Source: Aliiglaciecola lipolytica
GTDB taxonomy: Bacteria; Pseudomonadota; Gammaproteobacteria; Enterobacterales; Alteromonadaceae
Assembly (NCBI RefSeq): GCF_018860635.1
Contig: NZ_JAHKPT010000035.1
Coordinates: 374,241-438,240, forward strand
Length of the DNA: 64,000 nucleotides
Direction of reading: 5' to 3'
Positions 19,484 to 51,066 of the stretch are shown here, piece after piece. Position 1 is the first letter of the stretch. Each line of letters opens with the position of its first letter. The notes under the pieces were generated by a model that saw nothing but the letters and a program-made list of their open reading frames with translations, was not told where the DNA came from and searched no databases. The translations under genes and the position numbers were made by a program.

Positions 19484-21073
19484 CTAAGATTGCTTCACTG
19501 GCGAAGCGGTAAAACAACCGTTAATTCGACGGACTATTTTGCGCGGATTTTCGTCTGCTAATTCTGGGGGTAACAAGTAAGCAGGCGTATCTTGGTAGGC
19601 AACAAATTTAGCAAATCGATGAATTGCGTCAATGCCGACACTGGTTGATGCCCCATTTGACGAAGCGGGATAGGGACCACCATGATGCTGTGAACCACAA
19701 ACTTCAACGCCAGTAGGAAAACCATTAAATATAATTCTGCCGGCTTTTTGCTCTAATACCGGCAGTAGCTCCGCAATAAGCCCTTGGTCTTGTTCGGTGG
19801 CATGGATTGAAGAGGTAAGGTTTCCTTTTAGTACATTGGCCACTGCTAACATTTGCTGTTCATTGTCACATTCGACAAGCAAAGTTGCGGGGCCAAATAT
19901 TTCGTTTTGCATAGCCTCATTATTTAAGAATGCGGTAGCGGATGTACTAAGCAATATACTTGCGGGCATTAGAGGCTCGAGCAAGGCATTATCTTTTTTA
20001 TTGAGCCATTGAACATCATTGTAAGCGATGAAATCTTTTACTCCTGCAACAAAGGCAGTGCCGATGTTTTTATTCAACATCGGAGTTTTGGGTTGACTAT
20101 TAAGTCCTTGAGTGAAAGCCTCAATAAAGTCGGGGTGCTTTTCAATTACAATGATTCCTGGTGATGTGCAGAATTGGCCTGTGCCCATGCATACTGACGC
20201 GGCAAGTTTAGTTGCTAAGTTATTTGCGTCTTGTTGCAGCACCTTGTGGGTGAAAAACATTGGGTTAGTGCTACCCATTTCTGCAAATACGGGAATAGGC
20301 GTATCCCGTTTAGCCGCCGCGTTCATGATGGCACGGCCACCTTGCAAAGAGCCGGTAAAACCAACGCCTTGGATCAAAGGATCTGTGACTAATTGCTCAG
20401 ACAGCGAAATCTCGTTGCCTTGCAGCAAGGAAAATACACCATTGGGCATGCCACATTTAGTGATGGCCTTGTCAATTGCACGGGCTAAAAGGGCGTTTGT
20501 TGTTGGATGAGTAGGGTGCCCTTTTAATACCACGGTGTTACCAGCCGCTAATGCTGATATGGTATCACCACCAAGTGCGCCAAATGCAAAAGGGAAATTA
20601 GATGCACCAAACACCGCAATAGGTCCTATGGGCTTTAGCATCTTACGCAGGTCTGGTTTGGGTAGTGGTTGCCTTTGTGGCTCAGCCGTATCAATGCTAG
20701 CTTGAACCCAACTGCTGTCTTTTACGATTTTAGCAAATGCGTTAATTTGGTTGAGAGTACGAGCTCGCTCACCGGTTAATCTTGGTATACCTAGGCCACA
20801 TTCTTCGTTGCACAAGGTAAGTAAATCGTCGCCTAAAGCTTGGATTTCTTCAGCAATGGTGCTTAAAAATTCACTGCGTTTTATAGGGCTTATACGTGAG
20901 AATTGCAAAAACGCCGACCATGCGGCATGAGTTGCTGTAGTTACTTCCTGTGTTTGACAGTTGTAAAATGGGCTTAAAAGCTCTGAAGTAACTGGGTTTT
21001 GTGCGCAAAAAGCTGGCCCAGTTGGGGAAACCCATTCACCGGCTATGTAAGACTGTTGATTGACTTGGGTCAT
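19484..21073 (-). CDS. NADP-dependent 2-ketoglutarate semialdehyde dehydrogenase (aldehyde dehydrogenase family)
   Basis: A 529-residue aldehyde dehydrogenase of the ketoglutarate-semialdehyde/fatty-aldehyde subgroup, which is longer than the usual ALDH. The catalytic cysteine is about residue 302 (GTGQFCTSPG), the general base Glu about 265 (FAEMGSTNP), and the cofactor loop VGFTGSLQGGRAIM. It oxidises 2,5-dioxopentanoate to 2-oxoglutarate, the last step of the Weimberg pathway. The gene follows xylX by 10 bases and is co-oriented with xylD and a GH43 gene. That context, more than the fold, fixes the substrate. Confidence 0.88.
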   Translation of the reverse strand: MTQVNQQSYIAGEWVSPTGPAFCAQNPVTSELLSPFYNCQTQEVTTATHAAWSAFLQFSRISPIKRSEFLSTIAEEIQALGDDLLTLCNEECGLGIPRLTGERARTLNQINAFAKIVKDSSWVQASIDTAEPQRQPLPKPDLRKMLKPIGPIAVFGASNFPFAFGALGGDTISALAAGNTVVLKGHPTHPTTNALLARAIDKAITKCGMPNGVFSLLQGNEISLSEQLVTDPLIQGVGFTGSLQGGRAIMNAAAKRDTPIPVFAEMGSTNPMFFTHKVLQQDANNLATKLAASVCMGTGQFCTSPGIIVIEKHPDFIEAFTQGLNSQPKTPMLNKNIGTAFVAGVKDFIAYNDVQWLNKKDNALLEPLMPASILLSTSATAFLNNEAMQNEIFGPATLLVECDNEQQMLAVANVLKGNLTSSIHATEQDQGLIAELLPVLEQKAGRIIFNGFPTGVEVCGSQHHGGPYPASSNGASTSVGIDAIHRFAKFVAYQDTPAYLLPPELADENPRKIVRRINGCFTASPVKQS

Positions 21074-21083
21074 AGTTCGACTC

Positions 21084-22265
21084 CTATATTAAGTTGCGTT
21101 GTGCGAGGTTATTCATTAAGACACTGATACCAAATTCCCAAGGCGGAATTTCATTTGAAAAGTGCACCGTGTTGACCAAAGAGCCGAGCTTTTGTGCTGA
21201 AATGCTAACGATGTCGCCGGGCTTATGGGTGAAACCTTTGTCTTTTTCGTCTCTGTCTTGTGTAGGAGTAAACAACGTGCCTGTGAACAAGGCCAATCCA
21301 TCGGGATATTGATGGCAATCAGAAATCGTTTGAGAAACTAAATCTTCAATGTCGCGACTGATTTTTGTCATGTCATTAGTCGCATTAAGTTGATAGTCAT
21401 CTTGTATTCCACTAACACTAAGTTTTACCTGAGCGGATTTAAGCTGGGTGAGGGTAAAAGTGTTATCAAATAATCTAATGATGGGGCCAATTGCGCAGGA
21501 AGCATTGTTGTCCTTTGCTTTACCTAATAACAAAGCGCTACGACCTTCAATATCGCGCAGGTTAACATCATTCCCTAGGGTGGCACCGACTATTTTTCCT
21601 CGGCTGTTTATCGCTAAAACAATTTCCGGCTCCGGATTATTCCAAGTTGATATGGGGTGAATACCTATTTCTGCGCCAAAACCAACGGAAGAAAGCGGTT
21701 GTGCTTTAGTGAAAACCTCAGCATAAGGGCCAATGCCAACCTCAAGGTATTGTGACCACATATTTTCTTTTATCAGTACTCGTTTTAACTCTTCTGCGGC
21801 TACTGAACCAGGTACTAAATTATCAACCGACGTACCTAGAGTATGAGTGATTTTATCGCGTATTGTTTTTGCTACATGTGGATCGCCTCCGGCTTTTTCT
21901 TCTATTACGCGTTCAAGCATGGAGCCCACAAATGTCACACCGCATGCTTTAATCGCTTGTAAATCAAAAGGTGATAGCAAGTGCAGGTAGCTTTTATCTA
22001 ATGGTTTGTCTAGTGAGTTGTTAAAGAGTGCTTCAACACTACCCAGATAGGGCAAAGCCATATCTTCTAAGTCAGCTTTAGTTATGCTTTTTTCTATTAA
22101 TGCGGAACAGGTGGGGGCTAAATTTGACAAGTCATAAACGCCCGATTGTGATAACCAAACCGGCGCTGGACCAGCAACAGCATTGTTAGACGAAGTTGGT
22201 AGCCATGCCCTCGCAATCAATGTGCCTGCAAACCCGTCTTCGGGTAGATATTTTTCTATGTTCAT
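21084..22265 (-). CDS. xylX: 2-keto-3-deoxy-D-xylonate dehydratase (XylX, FAH family)
   Basis: A 393-residue protein of the fumarylacetoacetate-hydrolase fold. It closely resembles Caulobacter XylX as I remember it: YLEVGIGPYAEVFTKAQPLS, WNNPEPEIVLAI, LGNDVNLRDIEGRSALLLGK, AKDNNASCAIGP, and CHQYPDGLALFTGTLF. The metal-binding acidic residues lie in the NNPEPE and NDVNLRD segments. It dehydrates 2-keto-3-deoxy-D-xylonate (or the L-arabonate analogue) to 2-ketoglutarate semialdehyde. It lies between xylD and the semialdehyde dehydrogenase in one minus-strand operon. Confidence 0.9.
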   Translation of the reverse strand: MNIEKYLPEDGFAGTLIARAWLPTSSNNAVAGPAPVWLSQSGVYDLSNLAPTCSALIEKSITKADLEDMALPYLGSVEALFNNSLDKPLDKSYLHLLSPFDLQAIKACGVTFVGSMLERVIEEKAGGDPHVAKTIRDKITHTLGTSVDNLVPGSVAAEELKRVLIKENMWSQYLEVGIGPYAEVFTKAQPLSSVGFGAEIGIHPISTWNNPEPEIVLAINSRGKIVGATLGNDVNLRDIEGRSALLLGKAKDNNASCAIGPIIRLFDNTFTLTQLKSAQVKLSVSGIQDDYQLNATNDMTKISRDIEDLVSQTISDCHQYPDGLALFTGTLFTPTQDRDEKDKGFTHKPGDIVSISAQKLGSLVNTVHFSNEIPPWEFGISVLMNNLAQRNLI

Positions 22266-22297
22266 TTAAGTAAACCTATTAAATAATGTAAGTCACA

Positions 22298-24076
22298 CTA
22301 ATGGTTGTGACGAGGTAGTTTGTGTGAAATTTTATGGTACTTTGTTGCCAATTCGATAATCCCGCCTTGAGACAGATCGCTAACCGTGCTGCGATAGATT
22401 TCTTGCCAGGGCGTGTCAGATACCGGTGTCGAGAGAGTCTTATTTTGTTTACGCTTTGCCATTTCTTCCTGGCTTAAAGCCACATCACATTTTCCGTTAA
22501 TCAAATCGATGCGCAGCATATCGCCGCTTTCGATATAGGCGAGTCCTCCACCGGTGGAGCTTTCAGGGGAAACGTGCAAGATCGAGGGGCTGTCAGAGGT
22601 TCCCGACTGCCTGCCGTCCCCCAGTGTGGGTAAACTCGTGATCCCTTTCTCTATAAGGTAGTTTGGGGGTTGCATGTTGACTACCTCAGCAGAGCCAGGC
22701 CAGCCTACGGGGCCTGCACCGCGCAATACAAGTATGCAAGATGCGTCAATGTTTAAGGCAGGATTATTGATGTTTTTATGGTAGTCCTCAGCATTTTCAA
22801 ACACCACAGCCCTAGCGTTAAACACGCCCTCACTACCGGGTTGCGATAGAAAACGCTGTTTGAAATCAGGAGATATAACACTGGTTTTCATTATCGCGAA
22901 ATCGAAGAAATTTCCCGAGAGTACCGCGAACCCAGCATTGTCTAACATGGGGGCGTTGAAGGGTTTTATAACCGCTCTATCGCTGGTTTGTTTACCTTGT
23001 ATATTGTCTTTCAATAAATGACCAGATACGGTCAGCACATCTCCGTCTAATTCACCGGCTTCTAGTAGCTCCCATAATACGGCTGGCACACCGCCAGCAC
23101 GATGAAAGCGTTCGCCTAAAAATTCCCCACTAGGTTGTACATTGACTAACAGTGGAATGGGTCTGGCTAGTTCATTCCAATCTTGGGCGCTTATTTCGAC
23201 GCCCGCATGTTTTGCCATCGCCATAAGATGAGGCTGTGCATTGGTAGAACCACCTATAGCGGCAATAAGTTTCATTGCGTTGATAAAAGCCGCGCGTGTG
23301 AGAATACGTGATGGCACTAAGTCTTCGTAGACCATTTTCACAATACGCTCACCGGTACGATAGGCGATTTGACCTCGCTCTCGATAAGGAGCAGGAATCG
23401 CAGCACATCCGGTTAGAGACATGCCCAGTGCTTCTGCTACCGAATTCATAGTTAAGGCGGTGCCCATCGTATTGCAGTGTCCCGCTGAAGGCGCTGAACT
23501 CATGGCTAAATTGAGAAATTCTTCTTCGTCTATTTCACCCGCTGCGAGTCGCTTTCTTGAACGCCAGATCACGGTCCCAGAACCGACTAGTTCATTATTA
23601 TGCCAACCATCTAACATTGGACCTCCAGACAAAACGATGGATGGTATATCAACAGTAGACGCCGCCATAAGGCTTGAAGGTGTGGTTTTGTCGCAGCCGG
23701 TGGTAAATACGACGCCGTCAATGGGATAGCCGTACAATATTTCGACCAAGCCTAGATAGGCCAGATTTCTGTCTAAAGCGGCGGTAGGGCGGCGGCAGTT
23801 TTCAAAAATCGGATGACTTGGAAATTCGATGGGTATGCCACCGGCTGCTTGAATACCGTCTTTTACCCGGGCAGCAAGCTCTATATGTATACGATTACAA
23901 GGCGCAAGATCACTGCCTGATTGGGCAATACCTATAATAGGTTTACCGGAGCGTAGCTCTTCTGGTGTAATGCCATAATTCATAAAGCGCTCTAAATATA
24001 AAGCAGTGAGGTCAATGTGTTCTTTGTTGTCGAACCAATCTTGAGAGCGAAAACGCGTTTTTTTATGTGCGGTCAT
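22298..24076 (-). CDS. xylD: D-xylonate dehydratase (XylD, IlvD/Edd family)
   Basis: A 592-residue IlvD/Edd dehydratase. The [2Fe-2S]-ligating cysteines expected in pentonate dehydratases are present at 60 (LAPCNRIH), 128 (TTGCDKTTP) and 201 (SAGHCNTMGTA). The sequence closely resembles Caulobacter XylD as I remember it, including the start FRSQDWFDN..HIDLTALYLE and the C-terminal KLPRHNH. It converts D-xylonate to 2-keto-3-deoxy-D-xylonate. It overlaps the upstream GH43 gene by 14 bases, so release of xylose and its oxidative catabolism are translationally linked. Confidence 0.93.
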   Translation of the reverse strand: MTAHKKTRFRSQDWFDNKEHIDLTALYLERFMNYGITPEELRSGKPIIGIAQSGSDLAPCNRIHIELAARVKDGIQAAGGIPIEFPSHPIFENCRRPTAALDRNLAYLGLVEILYGYPIDGVVFTTGCDKTTPSSLMAASTVDIPSIVLSGGPMLDGWHNNELVGSGTVIWRSRKRLAAGEIDEEEFLNLAMSSAPSAGHCNTMGTALTMNSVAEALGMSLTGCAAIPAPYRERGQIAYRTGERIVKMVYEDLVPSRILTRAAFINAMKLIAAIGGSTNAQPHLMAMAKHAGVEISAQDWNELARPIPLLVNVQPSGEFLGERFHRAGGVPAVLWELLEAGELDGDVLTVSGHLLKDNIQGKQTSDRAVIKPFNAPMLDNAGFAVLSGNFFDFAIMKTSVISPDFKQRFLSQPGSEGVFNARAVVFENAEDYHKNINNPALNIDASCILVLRGAGPVGWPGSAEVVNMQPPNYLIEKGITSLPTLGDGRQSGTSDSPSILHVSPESSTGGGLAYIESGDMLRIDLINGKCDVALSQEEMAKRKQNKTLSTPVSDTPWQEIYRSTVSDLSQGGIIELATKYHKISHKLPRHNH

Positions 24077-25715
24077 GGTCTACATCTTTCGTTAAATTGT
24101 TACTAGAGGGAATGGGGCGATATTCAAACTGTTGGAAATCGGCATGAATACCTCTGTTGCTTAAATCACTGCAATGTAAACAGACGAATGCCCCGGTGAA
24201 AAAGCCTTTGCCTTTGACATAATCATCGGATAATTTCCACGCCTCGAAAGTCAAATCGATAGGACTCCAGTTGTCTTTTTCTAAGGCGTAGCTAAAGGAT
24301 AGTGTTTGCGCTCTAACGCTTACTTTGAGTGCTACCGACTCTTGCCATGCGGGTAGTGCTATGGGGCAGTCGTATAGAAAATATTTGGCATCGTTGTTAT
24401 CAAGTTGGATTATTTTTAGGCTGCGCGAGCCAAGAGCACTATCAAAATCGATGAAACAATAAATCCAATTTTGGGTATTGTAGTAACAAACGAGCCCCGC
24501 ATTTTGTTGTGGATTGACAGGTTTGAACGACAAAGTGGTTAAGGCGTCAAACTGAAAATGTTTCCATCTGTGGCCAACGGTCGCTTGGGTAAATTGTGAG
24601 ATAAGAGGATCACGACCAAATAGTCTTAAGCACTTATTGTCAGAGCATATCTCGCCTAACTCTTCACTAAATGGCACGCGCAGTGTCTGCCATTCTGCAT
24701 CTAACTTCTCTGAGTCAAACCGATCAATAAAGATTTCATCAGGAGCATCGTTTGAGCTTGAAAAGTCAGGAGCGGTTATCGCTGATTTTGCATGTTGGCC
24801 ACCGACTACATAGGGCCAATTATCTCGCCACTCAATTTGATCAATTGCGGTTTCACGACCTAAGGGACAATAGCCCTTTGTTTGTTCTGGCGCGGATTGA
24901 GTATTAGTATTTAACGGACGGCCTACTAAAAACACCATGTACCATTGGCTATTATGGGTTTGCAACATTGCCCCGTGCCCGGCTTTTTGCAATGCATGTT
25001 CGGGCATGTGAGCACTGGTTAAAATCGTCTCGTCGGGATGTAACTCAAAAGGTCCTGTTAGTTCACGACTTCGCAGTACAATAACTGCATGATCGTAAGC
25101 TGTACCGCCCTCTGCGACGAATAGATAGTAGTAGCCTCCTACCTGATAAATGTGTGGCGCCTCTGTTAGTTTTCGCTCAGTACCGGTGAATATAATGCTG
25201 CTTTTTTCAGACAGGCTACGCGTATCATGAAAATACTCTTGTAATACAATGTGATTGTGAGGGTTGCTATGATGACGAGGACCCCATTCTCGATAGGTAA
25301 TATATTTTTTGCCTGATGCATCATGAAACAACGAGGGGTCAAACCCTGCAAATGGTAGCTGAATAGGCTCGCTCCATGGTCCCTCTATGTTAGACGCGGT
25401 TACCAAAAAGTTATCACCGCATTTCCATGGGCTTTCTACACTTTTTACGTTTGAATACACTAACCAAAAAAGACCATCATGATGAGTTAAGCAGGGAGCC
25501 CAAACTCCGCCAGAGTTAGGGATACCTCGCATATCTAGTTGGCTTACCCGATCGAGTGGATATGCAACCAATTGCCAATCTTGCAAGTTCTTGCTGTGAT
25601 AAATGCGAACCCCAGGAAACCATTCGAATGTGGAAGTGGCTAAGTAGTAGTTGTCACCTTGACGGCAGATGACGGGGTCGGGATTGAAGCCTTTAATAAT
25701 AGGGTTGCTAATCAT
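24063..25715 (-). CDS. GH43 beta-xylosidase/arabinofuranosidase (Weimberg operon)
   Basis: A 550-residue cytosolic GH43 with a C-terminal beta-sandwich, the standard length for the XynB-type subfamily. Catalytic residues are visible: base Asp in GFNPDPVI near residue 12, pKa modulator Asp in FAGFDPSLFHD near 125, acid Glu in LTEAPHIYQ near 190. ATG at 25715 is preferred to a GTG at 25721. No signal peptide is seen, so it acts on imported xylo-oligosaccharides. It is first in the operon with xylD, xylX and the semialdehyde dehydrogenase. A LacI-type operator lies about 100 bases upstream. A paralogue is at 52217-53827. Confidence 0.92.
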   Translation of the reverse strand: MISNPIIKGFNPDPVICRQGDNYYLATSTFEWFPGVRIYHSKNLQDWQLVAYPLDRVSQLDMRGIPNSGGVWAPCLTHHDGLFWLVYSNVKSVESPWKCGDNFLVTASNIEGPWSEPIQLPFAGFDPSLFHDASGKKYITYREWGPRHHSNPHNHIVLQEYFHDTRSLSEKSSIIFTGTERKLTEAPHIYQVGGYYYLFVAEGGTAYDHAVIVLRSRELTGPFELHPDETILTSAHMPEHALQKAGHGAMLQTHNSQWYMVFLVGRPLNTNTQSAPEQTKGYCPLGRETAIDQIEWRDNWPYVVGGQHAKSAITAPDFSSSNDAPDEIFIDRFDSEKLDAEWQTLRVPFSEELGEICSDNKCLRLFGRDPLISQFTQATVGHRWKHFQFDALTTLSFKPVNPQQNAGLVCYYNTQNWIYCFIDFDSALGSRSLKIIQLDNNDAKYFLYDCPIALPAWQESVALKVSVRAQTLSFSYALEKDNWSPIDLTFEAWKLSDDYVKGKGFFTGAFVCLHCSDLSNRGIHADFQQFEYRPIPSSNNLTKDVDHDRT

Positions 25716-25814
25716 TTGCACCAGAGCAGTCTCTCTATTTATGTTTCGTTTTGTTCAGCCAATAGGTGATGGAGATACAAACGCTTTACGTTACTAATTT
25801 GTTAACCAATCTAA

Positions 25815-25832
25815 AATGTTCCCGGTAACATT
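25815..25832. promoter_or_regulatory. LacI-type operator AATGTTCCCGGTAACATT
   Basis: A palindrome with one symmetric mismatch pair (arms AATGTT/AACATT around CCGG), about 100 bases upstream of the GH43-xylD-xylX operon. It shares 13 of 18 positions with a site at 28119-28136 in front of the LacI gene at 28241. A CG-centred palindrome is typical of LacI-family operators. The pairing with that regulator is inferred. Confidence 0.55.
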
Positions 25833-26057
25833 TCAAGGCGTCATGTCACTATGAGTAACTAACGTAAAGATTAAATGCCTTTCCATAATGCATTTACTAT
25901 CTGACTCTGTTCCCCTATCTAACATTGCAGATAAGATGGGGAGCAGTGTGGCATTTTATCTTGAAGACAATTATTGCTTGTAGGTTTAATCAGCTTATTA
26001 GGCAGATAGTGTTTTGCTAGGCGCGATAAAGCTGACTTTTTAGTAGTTGCTACGAAG

Positions 26058-26087: not shown

Positions 26088-26105
26088 TCTACCTATCACT
26101 TAGTG

Positions 26106-27104
26106 TTATTTAAACATATCGTCGGCCAATATCCGTTCAACTGAATCGAGTTCAGGAGAGCCGCCTTGCATACCCGAGCCTGATGCTATCCAAAGGTAGC
26201 CGTTCATCTTTATGACACCACTACCATGTCTTCCTTGTATCAAAGATGGGGCAGATGACCACTGACCTTGCAATATATCGTAACGGTGAACTTCTTCATG
26301 GGCTTTATTTGGGTTGGCACTTTCTCCGCCTACCGCGATGAAGCTGTTATGCTCAGCGTACACTGAAAGACCTGCTCTAGGTATTGGTAGCTCCTGAGGG
26401 AGGGTCGACCATGTTTGACTAGCTATATCGAATACATCGACCTTTTCTTCAACTAATTCAAATACTTTATTTTGCGCACCCAACGTTCGCCGCCCACCAA
26501 TCACATAGATTTTATTGTCTATCAATACCCCTTGAGCGTGATCGCGAGAATGGGGGGCGTTGGGTAAGATAGACCACTTTTGGGTGCGTAAATCTAGGCT
26601 GTCAACCCAGCTTACGTTACCGTCGAGGTGACCATTTGTAATTCCACCAATCAAATAAAGTATGTCTTGGTTTACCACTGCAATAGCACTACCCCTTAGT
26701 CTCTCTTTGGGAATGGCCGTGCCCTGTTGCCAAGCATTTTTATGGGGTGAAAAAAAGTAAATGTGTGCTACTGGCTTTTCATCAGGGTATTGACCCGTCA
26801 GCGCGCCGGCAATAAGGATTTGGTCTTGCCACACAACAGGTTGAAAATGATGTAGTTCAAGAGGTGAAGGTGATAGGTTTCGCCAATTTAGGTTACTAGG
26901 TTCAAGCTCATCAACTGACTTAATACCTCGCCCACCAATTAAATACCCCTTGTTGTTTAATTGTACAAATCCAGCTTCATGGCGCACTGAAAATGTGCCA
27001 TTAGTTTCTACTTGGTCCCAGGTTTGTTGTGCCGCAAAAGCCATCACACTGCATGCATACAGCAAACCTACAATGAGTCGTTTTGGATTGAAAAGAGTCA
27101 ACAT
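26106..27104 (-). CDS. Secreted kelch-repeat protein
   Basis: A 332-residue protein with signal peptide (MLTLFNPKRLIVGLLYACSV, cleavage after AFA) and a six-blade kelch propeller. Repeated GG-W units are visible: YLIGGRG..., LYLIGGITNGHLDG, IYVIGGRRTLG, FIAVGGES, each followed by a conserved Trp such as LRTQKWSILP and ASQTWSTLP. Bacterial relatives include sialic-acid mutarotase NanM and uncharacterised glycan-locus proteins, so a sugar epimerase or binding role is possible but unproven. It follows the nucleoside-hydrolase-like gene by 9 bases on the same strand, so the two are probably one operon. Confidence 0.8.
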   Translation of the reverse strand: MLTLFNPKRLIVGLLYACSVMAFAAQQTWDQVETNGTFSVRHEAGFVQLNNKGYLIGGRGIKSVDELEPSNLNWRNLSPSPLELHHFQPVVWQDQILIAGALTGQYPDEKPVAHIYFFSPHKNAWQQGTAIPKERLRGSAIAVVNQDILYLIGGITNGHLDGNVSWVDSLDLRTQKWSILPNAPHSRDHAQGVLIDNKIYVIGGRRTLGAQNKVFELVEEKVDVFDIASQTWSTLPQELPIPRAGLSVYAEHNSFIAVGGESANPNKAHEEVHRYDILQGQWSSAPSLIQGRHGSGVIKMNGYLWIASGSGMQGGSPELDSVERILADDMFK

Positions 27105-27113
27105 TGTCTACGG

Positions 27114-27944
27114 CTACCTGTTGAATTTAGCAAAAAATTGCTCAACGGTGTCGACCTCTGTAATACCTAAAATCCAGATTACTTCTACTAAATCTGAAAA
27201 ATCAGCGCCGCCATAGTGAATACTATCATTCTGGTATCGCTCATTTACACCGTTATATTGGGTACTAATTGCGTTAGCTATTTTCCATACCTGTGATGAT
27301 GGTAAATTGTCCGCTTCAAGTTTTTTCACTGAAAAAGAAGTGTTATTAAAGCCCGGGGAGCCATTTGCTGCGACATTGCCATCAGGTACTTTGACATAAG
27401 TAGTGTGGGCTTTAACAAAGGCTAGGGCATCCTTACTGGTTTCATTTTCATTCCATGTACTGTGTTGAACTACAATAATTTGGTCTTTCGTTAGCGGTTT
27501 ATTCATTTGCGCCAAGTTGTGAAGTAGTTCTTGAGTAAAATCACTTTGACCGGCTTCTGCAACCCATACACGTCCACCTGATGCGATAGTTTGCGTAATG
27601 CGTTGTGCGGTGGCAGCAAGTGCCTGTTTACGTTGCATATGGGCATCGGTCCAATTGTTTTTAAACACTAAATCAAATAGCGAATCTGCTGGCACATATA
27701 AACCACCTTGCACACCATAGGTGCCACTAACAGCAAAATAGTTAATATTTTCAAAAGCTTTAGCTTTTATAATAAGATCCAGAGCGGCGATGGTATGTAT
27801 ATCATCCACGTCAGTTTTGAGGTCAAAATTTAGCAATAGTAAGTCTTTAGTTTTATCGAACTGGGGGACATCGTTAGCGGCGTGGCTCAATAGTGAGAAT
27901 AAAACAGACACTGTAAAGAGGGTAAGTAAGTAAAGCCTTTTCAT
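27114..27944 (-). CDS. Secreted nucleoside-hydrolase-like protein
   Basis: A 276-residue protein with signal peptide MKRLYLLTLFTVSVLFSLLS (cleavage after SHA). The mature start LLLLNFDLKTDVDDIHTIAA resembles the metal-binding aspartate cluster (DxxxDDxxA) of nucleoside hydrolases and DUF1593 proteins. Later segments VWVAEAGQSDFTQELLHNL and DFSDLVEVIWILG are consistent with that fold. I do not recognise a specific characterised family, and ribosyl hydrolysis is only a possibility. Its promoter region contains the perfect 20-base GntR palindrome, about 160 bases upstream, so it may belong to that regulon together with the kelch gene. Confidence 0.6.
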   Translation of the reverse strand: MKRLYLLTLFTVSVLFSLLSHAANDVPQFDKTKDLLLLNFDLKTDVDDIHTIAALDLIIKAKAFENINYFAVSGTYGVQGGLYVPADSLFDLVFKNNWTDAHMQRKQALAATAQRITQTIASGGRVWVAEAGQSDFTQELLHNLAQMNKPLTKDQIIVVQHSTWNENETSKDALAFVKAHTTYVKVPDGNVAANGSPGFNNTSFSVKKLEADNLPSSQVWKIANAISTQYNGVNERYQNDSIHYGGADFSDLVEVIWILGITEVDTVEQFFAKFNR

Positions 27945-28100
27945 TTTAAAATTCCTTAAAGAAACGGGTTAGATTTATTGTATTTAAGTCATCATATACA
28001 TGACTTAACAGCCAACATGGTTTTGAAAGCCTGACTCACCTTTTACTTTATATTGAGTCACTTCAATAACTAAGTTGAGCGGGTAGTCTCAATTTAGCGA

Positions 28101-28120
28101 TATTAATGTATACATTAATA
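28101..28120. promoter_or_regulatory. Perfect 20-base GntR-type palindrome
   Basis: TATTAATGTATACATTAATA is a perfect 20-base palindrome in the 296-base divergent region between the nucleoside-hydrolase-like gene and the LacI gene. It is the strongest example of the ATGTATACAT operator class in this window and can control both directions. It overlaps by two bases the LacI-type site at 28119. Confidence 0.7.
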
Positions 28121-28136
28121 AGTTACCAGTAACATA
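28119..28136. promoter_or_regulatory. LacI-type operator-like site, possible autoregulation
   Basis: TAAGTTACCAGTAACATA shares the GTT-x-CC-x-GTAACAT pattern with the site before the Weimberg operon (13 of 18 positions). It lies 105 bases before the LacI gene and abuts the GntR palindrome, so the two regulators might compete here. This is a weaker call than the GntR sites. Confidence 0.4.
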
Positions 28137-28240
28137 AACTATGTTCAATAGTTTATTTTCATAAGAGACTTTTCCTGACAGTGCTTATTTAATAGATTAT
28201 TGTGAGTAAATAATGCTAAAAATATTTGTGATTGAGATAG

Positions 28241-29245
28241 ATGAGTAAAAACAAAGCAAAAAGAACGACATTACAAGACATTGCAGACGTAGTTGGCATG
28301 ACAAAAATGACCGTCAGTCGCTATATGAAGAATCCCAATTTGGTCAAAGTTTCTTCCCGTATTCAGATTGAGTCAGCGATAAACAAATTAGGCTACATTC
28401 CTAATCGAGCCCCAAATATCTTATCGAAGGGGAAGAGCCACGCAATTGGTGTACTTTTTCCATCAATATCTAATCATGTTTTTGATGAAGTATTGCGTGG
28501 TATTGAGTCGGTTACTGAGCCCGCGGGTTATCAAATTATGATTGCTCATTACAGCTATTCAAAAGAACTCGAAGAAAAACGTATAGGCTCCTTACTTGGA
28601 TATCATGTGGACGGCCTTATCTTGTCTGAGAATGTACATACTGCAAATACATTACGGATGATCAGTTCATCTGGTGTTCCGGTGACAGAAATAATGGATA
28701 CCTGTACTCCCCCGATCCAACAGGCTGTTGGGTTCAATAATATGCAAGCGTCACAAAAAATGACGGAAAAGCTTATTCAAAAAGGATACAAGAATATCGC
28801 TTATATTGGCGCGAAAGGGGATGTACGGGATATATTGCGGCAAAGAGGTTATGAAGCAGCCATTGCAGAGCATGCACTTAAGCCTTTGATATTTCGTTCT
28901 CCGGATGTATCGTCGATTCGTTTAGGATCAGAAATACTGGATAGCATTCTTAGGGTACGTCCTAAAGTAGATGCGGCAATTTGTACCAATGACGATGTGG
29001 CCATGGGAGTGTTATTGAGCTGTAAGAAAAAGGGGATTCTGATCCCTGATGAACTTGCGGTTTCTGGCATGCATGGGCATGAGATGGGGCAGCTATATTC
29101 TCCCAAGCTGGCAAGTGTCATTACGCCGAGGTTTAATATTGGTAAAGTCGCTGCAGAGCAACTGCTGTCTCGTATTGATGGTGTGCAAGTTATCGATGAG
29201 TGCATCGATCTCGGATTCGAAATTAACGATGGTGAGAGTATTTAA
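28241..29245 (+). CDS. LacI family transcriptional regulator
   Basis: A 334-residue repressor. The N-terminal HTH is clear (TLQDIADVVGMTKMTVSRYM, residues about 9-28, then hinge-helix region NRAPNILSKGKSHAIGVLFP). The periplasmic-binding-like effector domain follows, with DGLILSE, VGFNNMQAS and ICTNDDVAMGV. The best candidate targets are the GH43-xylD-xylX operon and its own promoter, because a shared palindromic element occurs at both. The effector is not predictable; a pathway intermediate such as xylonate is plausible. It is convergent with the GntR gene, 25 bases apart. Confidence 0.9.
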   Translation: MSKNKAKRTTLQDIADVVGMTKMTVSRYMKNPNLVKVSSRIQIESAINKLGYIPNRAPNILSKGKSHAIGVLFPSISNHVFDEVLRGIESVTEPAGYQIMIAHYSYSKELEEKRIGSLLGYHVDGLILSENVHTANTLRMISSSGVPVTEIMDTCTPPIQQAVGFNNMQASQKMTEKLIQKGYKNIAYIGAKGDVRDILRQRGYEAAIAEHALKPLIFRSPDVSSIRLGSEILDSILRVRPKVDAAICTNDDVAMGVLLSCKKKGILIPDELAVSGMHGHEMGQLYSPKLASVITPRFNIGKVAAEQLLSRIDGVQVIDECIDLGFEINDGESI

Positions 29246-29270
29246 AATATGATTATACAGCATTTCGGCT

Positions 29271-33504: not shown

Positions 33505-33513
33505 TAAATGATC

Positions 33514-33552
33514 AGTCAAACCGCTATTATTAGCGGTTTGACTATTTTATTA
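33514..33552 (+). terminator. Terminator after TonB receptor gene
   Basis: A perfect 13-bp stem (AGTCAAACCGCTA / TAGCGGTTTGACT) with a TTAT loop, followed by ATTTTATT, 10 bases after the stop. It separates the receptor transcript from the downstream SapC genes, at least partly. Confidence 0.88.
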
Positions 33553-33635
33553 AAACGATGCATATCATGTTTTTGAGTGCAATAAATATTATTTAAGTAT
33601 CTTATTTGATGTAATAAAAAGTAAATAGGTGTTAA

Positions 33636-34370: not shown

Positions 34371-34379
34371 GTAAAGACA

Positions 34380-35405: not shown

Positions 35406-35449
35406 AGATTTTGGCAAGTATTTATTGCTTAGCTCATAGGAAGTTTCAA

Positions 35450-43754: not shown

Positions 43755-43758
43755 GGTT

Positions 43759-44726
43759 TTATAGTGTTGTTAAACAATAATTAATATGTGTTTGCAGAGG
43801 GGGTTCTGGGGCTAAAAAGGTAAATGGGAAATGTGGATTATTAGGGCTGTCGGGGCAAAACTGTGGCTCAAGGCAAATACCGTCAAAGGCATTAAAAGTA
43901 TCTTTTAAATGATGCCCTGTATACACCTGAATAGCAGGGTAATTAGAGAGCACGTTAAGCATTAGTTTATTGTCGGGGCTAGTAAGCTCTGCATGTTGAT
44001 TTATGGTTTGTAGGTTGAGTGTTTGTTCGCTCACAAAGTTGTGATCAATTTTATCGGCTTTATTGAGTATGCGCGCACTTGTGTAGTCAAAAGGCGCATT
44101 ATCAACCGGCGTTACTGAGCCTGTAGGAATGGACTGTGCATCGACAGGCGTATAATGCGCTGCTGCCAGTTTTAACGTATGGCCTTGAGCACAGTTATTA
44201 ATGCCATTTAAATTAAAATACGGGTGCGATGTAGGCCCCGCAATAGTTTTTTATTACTGGTAATCGTAAATTTAATTTCAAGGTTACTTTGATTTTTGCT
44301 ATTGGTTGTAAAACGATATAGCACATTAAATGTGGTTTTACCGGGGTAGCCGTTGTAACCATTGGGTAGGGTAATACTTAAACTTAGCGCATCTTTTTAA
44401 TGGTAATCGAGTTGCCAAAATAAGTCGCTTAATGCTTTGTCACCACCATGGAGTTGGTTGGTGCCTTCGTTTTTATTAAGCGCATAGGCTATATTATCAA
44501 TGTGTATTTGAGCGTTACTTAATCTGTTTGCATAAGGCCCGGCTACAGAACCCAAGTAAAACGGATCGCTCAAATAGTCATTAATATTAGCGTAGCCAAG
44601 TATGATATTGCGCTTTTTATTATCAACATGGGTAACCCAGCTGGTAAGCCGGGCACCGTAGTTAATAATAGAAATAGTGTCGTTTGCCTCATTACTTAGT
44701 GTGTATTGAACAATTGAAGTTGTCAT
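43759..44726 (-). pseudogene. galM: Aldose 1-epimerase (mutarotase), disrupted
   Basis: Three pieces on the minus strand reassemble into a GalM-like protein. The N-terminal piece (44397-44726) has INYGARLTSWVTH, GPYANRLSNAQIHID and NQLHGGDKALSDLFWQLDYH. It ends at an in-frame TAA, and the same frame resumes with KDALSLSITLPNGYNGYPG. A one-base loss in an A-run near 44246 then shifts frame into TIAGPTSHPYFNLNG. The C-terminal piece (to 43759) has PAIQVYTGHHLKDTF and LEPQFCPDSPNNPHF with the catalytic Glu. One nonsense and one frameshift make it nonfunctional, unless the bases are sequencing errors. Confidence 0.82.
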
Positions 44727-45203: not shown

Positions 45204-47222
45204 TTAAGTGTTGGCTTTTATTAACGCCTGCGCGGTACTCACTACATTTTGGGTGGTAAAGCCAAAGTGCGCTAATAACACGTTACCTGGCGCCGACTCA
45301 CCAAAGGTGCTCATACCAATCACTTTGCCTTGTAAGCCAACATATTTAAACCAGAAATCTTGGTGTGATGTTTCAATTGCAATGCGGTTTACTACCGAAT
45401 TTGGTAATACACTTTGCTTGTAATCATCTGATTGCTGATCAAACAAGGTCGTGCTTGGCATTGAAACTACACGTACTGCAACACCTTGAGTTGTGAGCTC
45501 TTTTGCGGCTTGTATTGCTAAATCAACCTCAGATCCCGTTGCAATTAAAATAAGCTCAGGCGCTTTACTACTATCGCTAAGTATATAGCCGCCTTTTTCT
45601 ATGTCGTTAATTTGCTGAGCTGTACGTGGCTGGTGGTTTAGCCCTTGGCGACTAAAAATAAGTGCTGTAGGTTGTTGCTGATTTTGTATTGCGTTTTTCC
45701 ACGAAACGGCGGTTTCTACCGCATCACATGGGCGCCATGTTACAAGGTTTGGCGTCATACGCAGATTGGCTAGTTGCTCAATAGGTTGGTGAGTTGGACC
45801 GTCTTCACCTTGGCCAATCGAGTCATGAGTATACACAAATATATTTTGAATACCCATGAGTGCCGACATTCTTACTGCGTTACGGGCATATTCCATAAAC
45901 ATTAAAAATGTTGCACCGTAATTAATAAAGCCAGAGTGCAGAGATATGCCATTCATAATGCCGCTCATACCAAATTCGCGCACACCATAAAACAGGTAAT
46001 TACCGCTGGCGTCATCTGCGCTTATGCCTTTAGAGCCAGACCAAAGTGTTAAGTTAGAACCGGCTAAATCGGCAGAGCCACCCAGTAACTCTGGTAAATA
46101 CGGGGCAAAGGCTTCAATAGTGTTTTGCGATGCTTTACGGGTGGCAATGTTGGCCGCGTCTTTATTGCATTGTGCAATATAGTTATTTGCAATGTCTTCA
46201 AAGTTTTCAGGCAGAGTACGTTTAATAACGCGGCGCTCAAATTCTTTGGCAAGCTCAGGGTAGCGGCTGGCGTAATCGCTAAACAGTTGCTGCCATTGCT
46301 GTTGTTTTTCATCACCGCTTTTTTTTGCGTCCCAATGGGCGTAAATATCATCGCTGATACTAAATGCTTCACGTGGTAGATTTAAAAATTTGCGCGCAGC
46401 CGCTATTTCATCATTACCCAGTGGCGAGCCATGGCAATCGTGCGAGCCTGATTTATTTGGTGAGCCATAACCAATCACAGTTTTACAACAAAGTAGGGTG
46501 GGTTTATCGCTTACTTGTTTAGCTTGTGAAATGGCGTTAGCTATTTGCTCAGGGTCGTGTCCGTCAATATCTGTTATTACATGCCAGCCATAAGCATCAA
46601 AGCGTTTCGCTGTATCGTCGGTAAACCAGCCTTCTACGTGACCGTCGATGGATATGCCATTATCATCCCAAAAGGCAATAAGTTTACCTAGGCCTAATGT
46701 GCCTGCAAGCGAACATGCTTCGTGCGATATGCCTTCCATTAAACAGCCATCGCCCATAAAACAGTAAGTGTAATGATCTACTATATCAAAACTCTCTTTG
46801 TTAAATTGTGCGGCGAGGGCTTTTTCGGCAATAGCCATGCCCACTGCATTTGATACACCTGCGCCAAGCGGGCCTGTTGTTGTTTCAACACCTGGGGTAT
46901 AACCGTATTCAGGGTGACCTGGGGTTTTTGAATGCATTTGCCTAAATTGTTTAAGCTCGCTTAGTGGTAGTTCGTACCCACTTAAATGCAATAAAGAATA
47001 AATAAGCATAGATCCGTGACCGTTACTGAGTACAAAGCGGTCTCGGTTTGGCCAATTTGGATCGTTTGGATTGTGGTTTAAAAAGTCGTTCCACAGTACT
47101 TCGGCTATATCGGCCATACCCATCGGTGCGCCCGGATGCCCTGAGTTTGCTTGCTGGACCGCATCCATGCTGAGTGCGCGAATGGCATTTGCAAAGGGGG
47201 CACGAGAAGAAAGCTGAGTCAT
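45204..47222 (-). CDS. tkt: Transketolase
   Basis: A 672-residue thiamine-diphosphate enzyme of the non-oxidative pentose phosphate pathway. ThDP motif [20 protein letters not shown] with DDNGISIDG near residue 155-190; N-terminal [20 protein letters not shown]; pyrimidine-domain [14 protein letters not shown] and [20 protein letters not shown]. It transfers two-carbon units between xylulose 5-phosphate, ribose 5-phosphate and erythrose 4-phosphate. Its presence beside transaldolase, xylA and xylB makes this a dedicated copy for xylose catabolism; a separate housekeeping copy is likely elsewhere (inference). A terminator separates it from the transaldolase gene. Confidence 0.97.
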
Positions 47223-47280: not shown

Positions 47281-48219
47281 TTAGTTTAGTAAGTCTTCAA
47301 CCAACTTAGCTAAAATACGCTGGTCTTTAGCAAAGTTACGAATACCTTCACCGAGCTTTTCACTGGCCATAGCATCTTCGTTGTGCTGCCATAAAAACTG
47401 CTGATGGGTAAGCTCGGTTATTTCACTTCGCGGTGCTTTTGTAATGTTTGCAGCGTCAAGCTTAGTAACCAGTTCACCTTCTTGGCTTTGTAAACTATTT
47501 AACAGTGCTGGCGATATAGTCAGTAAATCGCAGCCAGCAAGTTCGATTATTTCTTCAATGTTTCTAAAGCTTGCGCCCATTACCACGGTTTTATAATCGT
47601 ATTTTTTGTAGTACTGATAAATACCCGTAACCGATTGCACACCGGGATCTTCGTTTGGGGTGTAGTTTTTGTTTTCATGGGCTTTATACCAATCAAGAAT
47701 ACGACCAACAAACGGTGATATAAGCGTTACATTTGCTTGTGCACAGGCGATTGCCTGAGCCATAGAAAAAAGCAGCGTTAAGTTACACTTAATACCTTCT
47801 TTTTCTAGTTCCTCAGCGGCTTTAATACCTTCCCATGTTGAAGCAAGCTTAATAAGAACGCGGTCTTTTGAAATACCGGCATGCTCGTAAAGCGAAATGA
47901 GTTTACGCCCTTTGGCTATACTAGCTTGGGTATCAAAGGATAAACGCGCATCTACTTCACTTGATATACGCCCTGGTATCACTTTTAATATTTCACAACC
48001 GAAATTAACAATTAGTTGGTCGCAAATTGCGTCAACGTCATTGCCAGCTTTTTTAATTGCATCATCAATTAAATGTTTATACTGAGGTAATTTTGCAGCT
48101 TGTAAAATTAATGATGGGTTAGTTGTGGCGTCAACTGGTTGTAAGGCTTTGATTGACTCTACATCACCACTGTCGGCAACGACTGTGGTTACTTTTTTGA
48201 GTTGTTCTAACAAATTCAT
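47281..48219 (-). CDS. tal: Transaldolase
   Basis: A 312-residue class I transaldolase. The Schiff-base lysine lies in [12 protein letters not shown] near residue 130, and [13 protein letters not shown] marks the N-terminus; [14 protein letters not shown] and VMGASFRN are conserved barrel strands. It transfers dihydroxyacetone units from sedoheptulose 7-phosphate, completing xylose entry into the pentose phosphate pathway. It follows xylA by 39 bases, with a 24-base palindrome between them. Confidence 0.96.
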
Positions 48220-48228: not shown

Positions 48229-48252
48229 CGCCTTGGCTTTAAAGCCAAGGCG
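48229..48252. repeat. Perfect 24-base palindrome between xylA and tal
   Basis: Arms CGCCTTGGCTTT and AAAGCCAAGGCG are fully complementary with no spacer. Located 6 bases past the xylA stop and 9 bases before tal, on the transcript it forms a strong hairpin without U-tract. It probably attenuates or protects the upstream mRNA end, giving more XylA than Tal. Confidence 0.75.
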
Positions 48253-48258
48253 ATGTCC

Positions 48259-49578
48259 TTAAACGTAGCGGTTAACAATATTCTCAAGTAGTTCCTGACG
48301 ACCAGAAACTTGCTTAGGATCGATATTTTTTTCGTGTACTAGCGCGGCAAGGCTATCTAGTGACTGTTCGCCTTTAAGAATGCTTTGACCTAGGTCGTCT
48401 TTCCAACCTGCGTAGCGTTTTTCAACAAAATCAATGAGTTCGCCACCTTCAAGCATAGCTGCTGCATTGAGTAATGCTTTAGCCATCGTATCCATACCGC
48501 CAATGTGACCAATAAATAAGTCATCGCGTTCACATGATTGACGACGTAGCTTAGTATCAAAGTTAAAGCCACCGGTCGTTAAACCACCTATTTTTAAAAT
48601 TTCGTACATAACGAGCGTACATTCTGCTACATCATTAGGGAATTGGTCTGTATCCCAACCGTTTTGCATGTCGCCACGGTTAGCATCAATGCTACCCATA
48701 ATGCCTTCGGCACATGCAACTGCAATTTCGTGGTGGAAACTATGACCTGCGAGTGTTGCATGGTTCGCTTCAATGTTTACTTTAATTTCGTCTTGTAATC
48801 CGTGCTTATATAAAAATCCTGCAACTGTTGCAGTATCGTAATCGTACTGATGCTTAGTTGGTTCTTGTGGTTTTGGTTCAATTAGTAATGTGCCTTTAAA
48901 ACCAATTTTTTTCTTGTGCTCAACAACCATTTTTAAGAAGCGTGCGTACTGTTCGCTTTCTTGTGCAAGATCTGTATTTAGTAGCGTATCGTAACCTTCA
49001 CGCCCCCCCCAAAGTACATAGTTTTCACCGCCTAAACGATGGGTAACTTCCATAGCATGTTTCACCTGCGCTGCTGCGTATGCATAAGTGTCTGGGTTTG
49101 GGTTAGTTGCTCCACCAGCACAAAAACGCTTGTTTGAGAATAAGTTAGCAGTACCCCAAAGTAGTTTTACACCGGTACGTTGCATTTCTTTTTCAATAAT
49201 GTTTGCTATGTGCGTTACGTTATCGTGGCTTTCTTGCAATGTTGCACCTTCAGGGGCAATATCAACATCATGAAAACAAAAGTAAGGTACGCCTAGTTTT
49301 TCATAAAATTCAAAGGCTACTTTTACTTTTTGTTCTGCAAGTTCAAGTTGATTGCCCACAGGTTGGATCCAAGGACGATCGAACGTACCTTCACCAAAAA
49401 TATCAAATCCCGTAGAACAAAAGTTATGCCAGTAACAGGCTGCAAAACGTAAATGTTCTTTCATTGTTTTGCCAAGAACGACTTTGTTTTCGTCGTAATA
49501 ACGAAATGCAAATGGGTTTTTAGAGTTTTCACCCTCAAATTTTATTTTTTCAACGTTAGTAAAAAATTGCTCGCTCAT
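48259..49578 (-). CDS. xylA: Xylose isomerase
   Basis: A 439-residue enzyme of the E. coli-type xylose isomerase class (about 440 residues). The catalytic His and Asp are in [12 protein letters not shown] near residue 100. Metal-binding motifs are [15 protein letters not shown] (Glu near 230), [15 protein letters not shown] and [18 protein letters not shown] at 49578 is chosen over 49590, because GGAG stands at suitable spacing. It interconverts D-xylose and D-xylulose. It lies between xylB and tal. Confidence 0.97.
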
Positions 49579-49608
49579 AATGTGCTCCATTAATCTTAAA
49601 TTATTGTA

Positions 49609-51066
49609 TTAAAAATATGCTTTTACACTTTGATAAAGTGCTTTGTATGTTTTGTATTGCTGTGTGTAAAAATCTTGCATAACTGTATCTGGCTCGATGG
49701 TTTTCGTTACTTTTCCATTTACACATACTTGTTGTGCAGGGATTTGTTCTACCCCTATTCGAGCAAGTCTCGCAGCGCCAAATGCTGGGCCAACTTCTGA
49801 GCTTTCTCGGTAAATTAGCGGACGGTTTAGTACGCTTGCGATGATTTTTCCCCATAGAGGGCTCTTCGCACCACCTCCGATGACAGTGACATCATCAATT
49901 TGTGCGCCAGCATCAAGCAGTACTTGCTGGCCATCGGCAAAGGCAAAAGCGACGCCTTCTAAAACTGCACGGCCAAGGACGGCGGCATCGGTATCACTGT
50001 CTAAACCAAAAAACACGCCTTTAGCTTCAGGGTTATTATGGGGGGTACGCTCGCCTGCTAAATATGGTAAAAATATCACTGAACTTGGTTTGCTAAAGTC
50101 ACATTTGCTAACTTGTTCAAGCAGTGCGCTTTCGCTTTCAAAATTGGTTAATTTAGTTACCCAGGTTAAACAGCTTGCTGCGCTTAACACCACTGACATT
50201 TGGTGCCAAGTGTTTGCAATGCAATGGCAAAAAGTATGTACTGCGCCCTCTGGGTTAGGCAGATATCTTTCGTTGGCGACAAAGTAAACGCCCGAAGTAC
50301 CTAATGATAGAAATGCTTTATTTGGCGTAATAACACCTACACCCGCCGCACCCGCAGCATTATCGCCACCACCGGCAATCACAGGCACTTGTTGCATGCC
50401 CCATTTAGCCGCAACGTCAGCTGTTAACGTGCCGGTAATTTCTGTGCCTTCAAAAAGAGTAGGCATGTGTTGTTCGGTTAAGCCGGTTGCAGTAAGCATT
50501 TTTTCTGACCATGCTCTTTTTTCAACATCTAGCCACAGTGTTCCTGCAGAGTCAGACATATCTGATGCAAAATCGCCAGTCATTAAAAAGCGTAGATAGT
50601 CTTTTGGCAGTAATACTTTAGCGACTTTTGCAAAGTTTTCAGGCTCATACTCTTTTAACCACACCAATTTAGGCGCAGTAAAACCTGGCATTGCAATGTT
50701 GCCAGTAATGCTTCGAGAGTTGGGTTCGCGTTTTTCAAGTTCTAAGCATTGTGATGCACTGCGTCCGTCGTTCCATAGAATGGCAGGGCGGATAACTTTA
50801 TTGTCTTTATCAAGTAACGTAGCGCCATGCATTTGACCAGAAAGCCCAATCGCTTTTACGGATTGTAGTAGTGCAGAGTGAGTATTTTTGAGCTCCTCAA
50901 TAGCGGTGCATGTAGCAAGCCACCAATCCGCAGGATTTTGCTCAGAAAATAGTGGTGCAGGGCGTGAAACGCTCAAAGATCCGCTCGCTTGAGCAAGTAA
51001 ACGGTCTTGCTCGTCTAAAATAATTACTTTTACACCCGAAGTGCCTAAATCGATACCAAGGAACAT
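49609..51066 (-). CDS. xylB: Xylulokinase
   Basis: A 485-residue FGGY kinase. Phosphate loop GIDLGTSGVKVIILDEQD at the N-terminus, SGQMHGATLLD, the catalytic Asp in ILWNDGRSA near residue 235-equivalent, FLPYLAGERTPHNNPEAKG (family signature), and the C-terminal GGGAKSPLWGKI. It phosphorylates D-xylulose to D-xylulose 5-phosphate. The 14-base xyl-box lies 28 bases before its start. It is first in the xylB-xylA-tal(-tkt) operon. Confidence 0.97.
   Translation of the reverse strand: MFLGIDLGTSGVKVIILDEQDRLLAQASGSLSVSRPAPLFSEQNPADWWLATCTAIEELKNTHSALLQSVKAIGLSGQMHGATLLDKDNKVIRPAILWNDGRSASQCLELEKREPNSRSITGNIAMPGFTAPKLVWLKEYEPENFAKVAKVLLPKDYLRFLMTGDFASDMSDSAGTLWLDVEKRAWSEKMLTATGLTEQHMPTLFEGTEITGTLTADVAAKWGMQQVPVIAGGGDNAAGAAGVGVITPNKAFLSLGTSGVYFVANERYLPNPEGAVHTFCHCIANTWHQMSVVLSAASCLTWVTKLTNFESESALLEQVSKCDFSKPSSVIFLPYLAGERTPHNNPEAKGVFFGLDSDTDAAVLGRAVLEGVAFAFADGQQVLLDAGAQIDDVTVIGGGAKSPLWGKIIASVLNRPLIYRESSEVGPAFGAARLARIGVEQIPAQQVCVNGKVTKTIEPDTVMQDFYTQQYKTYKALYQSVKAYF

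Follow-up and report, generated by a model that had tools for sequence, protein, structure and literature searches.

Why would a bacterium keep two routes for one sugar in a single locus? The question is raised by a 64,000-nucleotide stretch of Aliiglaciecola lipolytica, a probably marine bacterium (G000:C27:374241-438240, contig NZ_JAHKPT010000035.1; hereafter, the window), taken from a genome of 5.03 Mb (G000; G numbers denote the genomes compared). It carries an isomerase (XI) module, consisting of xylB-xylA-tal-tkt with a GH43 gene (GH43b) and a LacI-type gene (LacI_b), and, about 26 kb away, a Weimberg-type (W) module, consisting of GH43a-xylD-xylX-aldehyde dehydrogenase with LacI_a. GH10 genes lie within and next to this island. 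A first-pass annotation had described two complete-looking xylose routes, each with its own GH43 xylosidase and LacI-type regulator, and had proposed flux switching between them. The xylose genes that it named are present where it placed them, and both GH43 genes (39% identical to each other) and both LacI genes were found. Gene families, gene order, conserved palindromes, a lactonase deletion and linkage in relatives are all read from sequence. From these we lean towards a W module that works chiefly as a xylonate branch rather than as an independent alternative to the isomerase; the two modules resemble a pair of feeding lines more than a demonstrated switch.

Two modules and a lost lactonase

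The genes xylB, xylA, tal and tkt lie on the minus strand (51066-45204) with intergenic gaps of 18, 39 and 58 bases, downstream of GH43b and LacI_b, and all four products score above their NCBIfam cut-offs (Table 1). The window xylA is 79 to 86% identical to those of G046, G066, G003, G009 and G112, and only 64% identical to a second xylA of G000 on contig C13, so that the XI copy looks accessory. The C13 copy shares 81% identity with the sole xylA of Paraglaciecola sp. 20A4 (G147; hereafter, 20A4), which holds the nearest named XylX locus (89%). Relatives of LacI_b (61 to 65%) were found near the same genes in G046, G066, G003, G112 and G009, the last of which has no tal or tkt close to its xylB-xylA. 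In the stretches fetched from G084, the best LacI_b match was just 28% identical.

The W operon comprises six minus-strand genes from 25721 to 16936, in the order GH43a, xylD, xylX, aldehyde dehydrogenase, GPH symporter and 2-hydroxyacid dehydrogenase, with intergenic gaps of -14, 32, 10, 251 and -4 bases. On sequence alone, XylD would account for the D-xylonate dehydratase step of the Weimberg pathway and XylX for the 2-keto-3-deoxyxylonate dehydratase step. Among solved structures, XylD scored highest against 5oyn (990.6 bits), followed by galactonate dehydratase (7m3k, 781.1 bits) and L-arabinonate dehydratase (5j83/9evv, 463.7 bits). The 5oyn entry is listed as 'Dehydratase, IlvD/Edd family', and we take it to be the Caulobacter crescentus xylonate dehydratase. 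Cys60, Cys128 and Cys201 of XylD, to which the first-pass annotation had drawn attention, align with cysteines of 5oyn and are presumably the cluster ligands. The top solved match of XylX was 9kkt, named just as FAH family, and the second was 2q18, a 2-keto-3-deoxy-D-arabinonate dehydratase. The aldehyde dehydrogenase matched its family and fell below every listed substrate-specific NCBIfam cut-off; both it and XylX belong to the families expected of them. No Dahms-type aldolase was found among the W operon proteins, to which, rather than the rest of the genome, this search was restricted.

In 20A4, G046 and G084, the three closest W loci, the order GH43-xylD-xylX-2-ketoglutarate semialdehyde dehydrogenase-lactonase-GPH-2-hydroxyacid dehydrogenase is kept, together with a Kelch gene, a gene for a 276-residue protein and LacI_a; the blocks of G046 and G084 additionally contain a cupin gene. 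Identities to the window in G046, G084 and 20A4 were 57, 60 and 78% for the 2-hydroxyacid dehydrogenase and 77, 78 and 96% for LacI_a. The lactonase, retained at the same place in all three, is the gene that the window has lost. The nucleotide alignment with 20A4 is collinear over 7710-19432 (80.1%), 19461-25900 (83.4%) and 26098-36919 (82.9%), and at 19432|19461 about 740 bp of the 891-bp lactonase gene of 20A4 are missing. The 251-base gap between the aldehyde dehydrogenase and GPH genes is the scar of this deletion, and the nucleotide alignment revealed a short 3' lactonase piece there, although a first tblastn had found no remnant. The W operon thus contains no xylonolactonase, and weak SGL relatives remain in the window: the best G000 match of the lost lactonase is SGL_a (30% over about 130 residues), and it also weakly matches SGL_b, which could possibly help.

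Nor does the operon contain a sugar dehydrogenase, and no dehydrogenase of SDR or Gfo/Idh type was present between GH43a and the GPH gene in the stretches of 20A4, G046 and G084. Without an operon dehydrogenase and with the lactonase lost, the W module would need genes from elsewhere to start from xylose. Of the two complete-looking routes, the isomerase route holds up; completeness of the Weimberg route is not supported.

These features are consistent with an island in which xylan genes accompany two separately built and seemingly separately repressed pentose modules. The XI module would lead xylose to pentose-phosphate intermediates, and the W module would lead D-xylonate to 2-oxoglutarate. 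Xylonate might enter via the GPH symporter or be produced from xylose by GfoIdh_b, a Gfo/Idh/MocA protein encoded beside xylB, in which case the xylonolactone may open spontaneously or by another lactonase. Fed mainly by different substrates, a sugar and a sugar acid, the two routes could run together, and a switch would be unneeded. We count the GntR/IdnR-like LacI_a, the symporter in the operon and the nearest structures of XylD (5oyn) and XylX (9kkt) in favor of this reading, along with the lost lactonase, the missing dehydrogenase in the window operon and the three closest loci, the module-specific palindromes and the lack of a pyrroloquinoline quinone glucose dehydrogenase above the cut-off in G000.

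That the modules have separate operators, as had been suggested, is supported by conserved, module-specific palindromes, and in both modules a LacI gene lies near the palindrome at its own operon. The XI palindrome, TGTTAGCGCTAACA, has two exact sites in the whole G000 genome, both in the XI module; at up to two mismatches, the window yielded two matches versus 0.22 expected, a number reached by 1 of 100 shuffles. Exact and mismatch patterns were searched in 10 genomes, with the reversed pattern as control. One copy of TGTTAGCGCTAACA each was found in G009, G046, G084, G066, G003 and G112, always upstream of a xylB, so that an exact site precedes xylB in 7/10 genomes, namely the seven with the window xylA type. 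It was absent from G023, G001 and 20A4, where xylA belongs to another type (62 to 64%) or was not found, and the reversed control matched none of the 10. A second xylB-xylA copy of G003, on contig C24, had no TGTTAGCGCTAACA in the stretch looked at. The W palindrome, ATGTTACCGGGAACAT, has its only exact G000 site upstream of GH43a, recurs at that place in 20A4, G046 and G084, and has a weaker window site (3 mismatches) at 28120. The neighboring LacI proteins are putative ligands of these palindromes, and xylonate or a derived acid is the putative inducer of the W module. The evidence bears out a pair of modules, each with a LacI-type gene and operator-like sites of its own, and leaves the proposed flux switch conjectural.

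Table 1. Features of the window, in window coordinates
Feature	Position	Strand	Basis or remark
OtnC, OtnK, tartrate-dehydrogenase-like gene, TctCBA, Gfo/Idh/MocA (GfoIdh_a), SGL genes	7986-16906		
D-2-hydroxyacid dehydrogenase family gene	16936..17907	-	Pfam 2-Hacid_dh_C; adjoins GPH gene
GPH-family symporter	17904..19232	-	TIGR00792 387 bits > 231.35
Lactonase scar of W operon	19233..19483	-	about 740 bp missing relative to 20A4
Aldehyde dehydrogenase, presumed 2-ketoglutarate semialdehyde dehydrogenase	19484..21073	-	Pfam Aldedh; 1eyy 420.8, 3v4c 379.8 bits
xylX, FAH-type 2-keto-3-deoxypentonate dehydratase	21084..22265	-	9kkt 350.4 bits; 2q18 79.4 bits
xylD, D-xylonate dehydratase class	22298..24076	-	5oyn 990.6 bits; PRK13017 subfamily 987 > 684
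GH43a, beta-xylosidase type	24063..25721	-	Pfam 310.6 bits; 14-base overlap with xylD
W operator-like palindrome ATGTTACCGGGAACAT	25816..25831	-	94 bp from GH43a start
Kelch-repeat protein	26106..27104	-	Pfam Kelch; signal-like N-terminus by eye
276-residue protein	27114..27944	-	signal-like N-terminus by eye
LacI_a, GntR/IdnR-like putative W repressor	28241..29245	+	IdnR 387.6, GntR 383.4 bits, both below cut-offs
tkt, transketolase	45204..47222	-	TIGR00232 987.9 bits > 682.25
tal, transaldolase	47281..48219	-	TIGR00874 487.5 bits > 396.2
xylA, xylose isomerase	48259..49590	-	TIGR02630 692.7 bits > 533.25
xylB, xylulokinase	49609..51066	-	TIGR01312 579.3 bits > 380.25
XI operator-like palindrome TGTTAGCGCTAACA	51095..51108		28 bp from xylB start, between xylB and GfoIdh_b
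GfoIdh_b, Gfo/Idh/MocA, candidate D-xylose 1-dehydrogenase	51231..52187	+	nearest solved 2o48; EKP motif kept
GH43b, beta-xylosidase type (GH43 + GH43_C2)	52217..53827	-	Pfam 327.8 bits
XI operator-like palindrome TGTTAGCGCTAACA	53880..53893		52 bp from GH43b start, between GH43b and LacI_b
LacI_b, putative XI repressor	54037..55074	+	Pfam LacI + Peripla_BP_3

Linkage of the two routes in relatives

The first-pass annotation had held that bacteria usually rely on one route. In a sample of 147 genomes of the family (matches at E <= 1e-20), XylX was found in 7 and XylA in 40, and 6 of the 7 XylX carriers also had XylA, which speaks against that view. With G000 left out, XylA occurred in 5/6 XylX carriers versus 34/140 other genomes (Fisher p = 0.005, uncorrected for kinship; G046 and G084 belong to the same genus). 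XylA was also present in 13/18 XylX genomes of a chosen, non-random set, two members of which (G023 and G149) seem to be the same genome. In a class sample of 369 genomes (E <= 1e-40), with XylX in 8, XylA in 13 and both in 2 (G000 and G431), the association without G000 was not significant (1/7 versus 11/361; p = 0.21). Co-occurrence of the two routes within a genome is not unusual.

Their repeated linkage is less ordinary than co-occurrence. The distance between XylX and XylA is about 22 kb in G046, 17 kb in G084, 12 kb in G066 and 26 kb in G000. G066 pairs an XI module of the window type with another W lineage. In that lineage, also present in G003, the operon includes an SDR and a lactonase, and the identity to the window proteins is 53% (G066) and 51% (G003) for XylX and 59 and 60% for XylD. 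The blocks are arranged differently in the window and in G046, so that the linkage either outlived rearrangement or arose more than once. The modules are separable, as 20A4 indicates: it holds the W block without the XI module and has one xylA, of the other type (64%).

In a further genome, G003, genes of both routes adjoin on contig C24 (L112 4066-12327), where xylB-xylA-xylD-lactonase-SDR-GH43 share a strand and are separated by 50, 130, 5, -19 and 98 bases, an apparent single operon. Its xylA is 98% identical to another G003 copy on contig C35. The fetched part of C24 contained no XylX, and the one XylX match of the genome is on C20; in both G003 and G023, the XylX and XylA matches lie on separate contigs. 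That xylD shares an apparent operon with xylA and xylB fits parallel use of the routes, not an exclusive choice.

No XylA was found near XylX (E <= 1e-20) at any of 80 loci fetched with flanks of up to 10 kb; many of the loci were shorter, and XylD was present in just 13 of the 80. Given these limits, and with three of the four linkages exceeding 15 kb, this was not a fair test. G431, in which XylX and XylA are about 10 kb apart on one contig, was rejected as a clean independent example, because the score of a dehydratase close by exceeds the cut-off of the L-arabinonate dehydratase model (899.7 versus 882); it may represent an arabinose route. A locus of Flammeovirga sp. EKP202 (L022) contains XylX (60%), 2-ketoglutarate semialdehyde dehydrogenase (51%) and GH43 (43%) with no XylD match at E <= 1e-20, and transfer of this XylX between phyla is possible.

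Literature searches for the Weimberg pathway with Alteromonas returned nothing on point by title, and those for Weimberg and isomerase routes together in a marine xylan cluster returned no paper. Searches for xylobionate and related terms gave no title on bacterial xylobionate use and one on xylonic acid use, in Enterobacter cloacae. The linked loci, in four genomes and two W lineages, with a fifth genome carrying a partial oxidative route beside xylA-xylB, constitute a natural test set for whether the oxidative route acts as a line for xylonate, as a redox valve or as a backup.

Source of xylonate and competing explanations

Several observations weigh against a branch fed mainly by xylonate. 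The first gene of the W operon is a GH43 gene, as would suit xylo-oligosaccharide and not free xylonate. With one mismatch, ATGTTACCGGGAACAT also occurs elsewhere (one site each on contig C10 of G000 and in G009, two in G023 and one more in G046), and its reversed control matched 3/10 genomes, so that only the exact site is strong. G000 contains 14 matches to the SDR of the G066/G003 type (best, 41%), and any of these, or of the two weak SGL relatives in the window, could serve. The distribution of GfoIdh_b points in the same direction. Relatives with 50 to 57% identity are found in G046, G084, 20A4 and G112, so that GfoIdh_b or a relative of it is present in four W genomes that lack an operon SDR (G000, G046, G084 and 20A4), and the SDR-bearing G066 and G003 have only distant relatives (26%, and 32% over a part). 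This fits a xylose dehydrogenase feeding the W module, and the Weimberg route could then start from xylose.

The window might, along the lines of the first-pass annotation, hold two full xylose routes, each starting from xylose and switched by separate repressors, with GfoIdh_b producing xylonolactone that opens spontaneously or through SGL_a or SGL_b and then feeds the W operon. GfoIdh_b is the best candidate for a D-xylose dehydrogenase in the window. It adjoins xylB divergently, with the XI palindrome in between, and its nearest solved structure is a dimeric dihydrodiol dehydrogenase (130.8 bits, near full length). That enzyme has been reported to be identical to the NADP D-xylose dehydrogenase of pig liver (PMC2228372, the portion available). 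The separate, module-specific palindromes would also suit a switch. Yet we consider this explanation unlikely, if the most credible of the alternatives: the operon lactonase is deleted, G003 carries genes of both routes in one apparent operon, and the XI palindrome was not reported beside GfoIdh_b in G046, G084, G112 and 20A4. The fit of GfoIdh_b to the W module is loose as well, as G112 has GfoIdh_b without XylX and G001 has XylX without a GfoIdh_b match; in G023, which has XylX, the GfoIdh_b match is 35% identical, and an SDR of 53% identity lies on a separate contig. No pyrroloquinoline quinone (PQQ) glucose dehydrogenase exceeded the cut-off in G000 (best, 161 bits versus 832.65); 20A4 has one at 939.3 bits.

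Less probable again is a role of the W module in the use of some other pentonate or aldonate, for instance D-arabinonate, within a general sugar-acid island that includes tetronate-type genes. D-xylonate and D-arabinonate yield the same 2-keto-3-deoxy acid, and the second solved matches of XylX (2q18) and XylD (galactonate dehydratase) would agree with such a role. The adjacent block at 7986-16906 is probably a tetronate route, with OtnK passing the 3-oxo-tetronate kinase model (515.9 > 350) and OtnC just below its own cut-off (246.1 versus 250). It is tied to the W block by a third palindrome, AATGTATACATT, which lends support to a sugar-acid theme. One exact copy, at 9971, has OtnK on one side and the tartrate-dehydrogenase-like gene on the other; a second, at 28105, separates LacI_a from the gene for the 276-residue protein. 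Copies with one mismatch lie at 30287 and 30309, upstream of a TonB receptor (4 matches versus 0.42 expected; reached by 0/100 shuffles). In 20A4, three exact copies occupy corresponding gaps, and the likely owner of the palindrome is an FCD-type GntR gene at 29271. Against another aldonate stand the 14-base overlap of the GH43 gene with xylD, the GH10 genes in and beside the island, and the higher score of XylD to 5oyn than to other sugar-acid dehydratases.

A more specific version of the xylonate branch, to which we give a slim chance, is that the W module is dedicated to oxidized xylan ends and that linked XI and xylonate modules are a recurring, selected design in the xylan eaters of this family, as opposed to redundancy or a switch. 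The GPH symporter would import xylosyl-xylonate, GH43a would cleave this compound to xylose and xylonate, and the XI and W modules would be fed simultaneously by these products. If true, this would point to an aldonate stream in xylan breakdown that xylose-centered annotation overlooks. Decay of the W module after loss of the lactonase, such that it no longer works in this strain, is very improbable, as the deletion and the nearby damaged genes (what is left of an XylE-like gene at 38607-38664, and an aldose-epimerase-like gene that falls into two frames at 43771-44720) are set against six intact W operon genes with 76 to 96% protein identity to 20A4, an unchanged palindrome and the ability of lactones to open without an enzyme.

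Neighboring genes and known systems

Two further assignments in the tetronate-type block were tried and rejected. The idea that GfoIdh_a (14844) and SGL_b (15899) supply the steps missing from the Weimberg route was set aside, since they lie among TctCBA, the tartrate-dehydrogenase-like gene, OtnC and OtnK, the last of which passes its tetronate model. An apionate role of the block failed on the OiaK model (100 bits versus a cut-off of 700). The Kelch protein (60 to 83% identity in the three relatives) and the 276-residue protein (61 to 83%) are encoded together in the W block of four genomes, including G000. For the latter, there was no Pfam or NCBIfam match, the structural model was of low confidence (mean pLDDT, 64.2), and Foldseek gave no match at E <= 0.001, with a weak nucleoside hydrolase match at rank 11. 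The XylE-like remnant is that of a sugar porter and is 89.7% identical in nucleotides to G084; the epimerase-like gene is of aldose 1-epimerase type. Two sets of cupin_8 and tryptophan-halogenase-family genes were found at 615-3839 and 33636-36922, one set including DUF6445, the other SapC together with an upstream TonB receptor. At the island edge (55577-56646), an HTH gene is followed by a Fic/DOC gene, before genes of RF3, ArgS, RF-1/2 and LysS type.

The Weimberg operon of C. crescentus is xylXABCD. It is also named in the available portion of PMC6475665. The window shares with it XylD, XylX and an aldehyde dehydrogenase of the same families. Unlike xylXABCD, however, the window operon lacks a dehydrogenase and a lactonase, and the W block includes GH43, a GPH symporter, a 2-hydroxyacid dehydrogenase and a GntR/IdnR-like LacI protein. 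In Escherichia coli, yagEFGH likewise places a GPH transporter and a GH43 gene beside a xylonate dehydratase and is of the aldolase (Dahms) type. The dehydratase family differs, with the window XylD scoring 159.8 against the YjhG/YagF model (cut-off, 808.15).

Among marine bacteria, Vibrio sp. EA2 carries a beta-1,3-xylan locus, xul, with GH26, GH43, xylA and xylB, and a figure legend on related loci names Tal, Tkt and LacI (PMC12125979). In the portion of that source available, only the isomerase route is described; the regulator XylRA is XylR-like, and the word 'xylonate' appears nowhere in the paper. For Sphingomonas sanxanigenens NX02, the accessible parts of PMC10463938 and PMC10884872 describe isomerase, Weimberg and Dahms routes in one genome, without mention of their linkage or operators. 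In Paraburkholderia xenovorans LB400, Weimberg and isomerase routes have been inferred from the genome (PMC12568896, in part). There the Weimberg genes are on a megaplasmid with the isomerase genes distant, whereas in the window the two lie about 26 kb apart, beside xylan genes.

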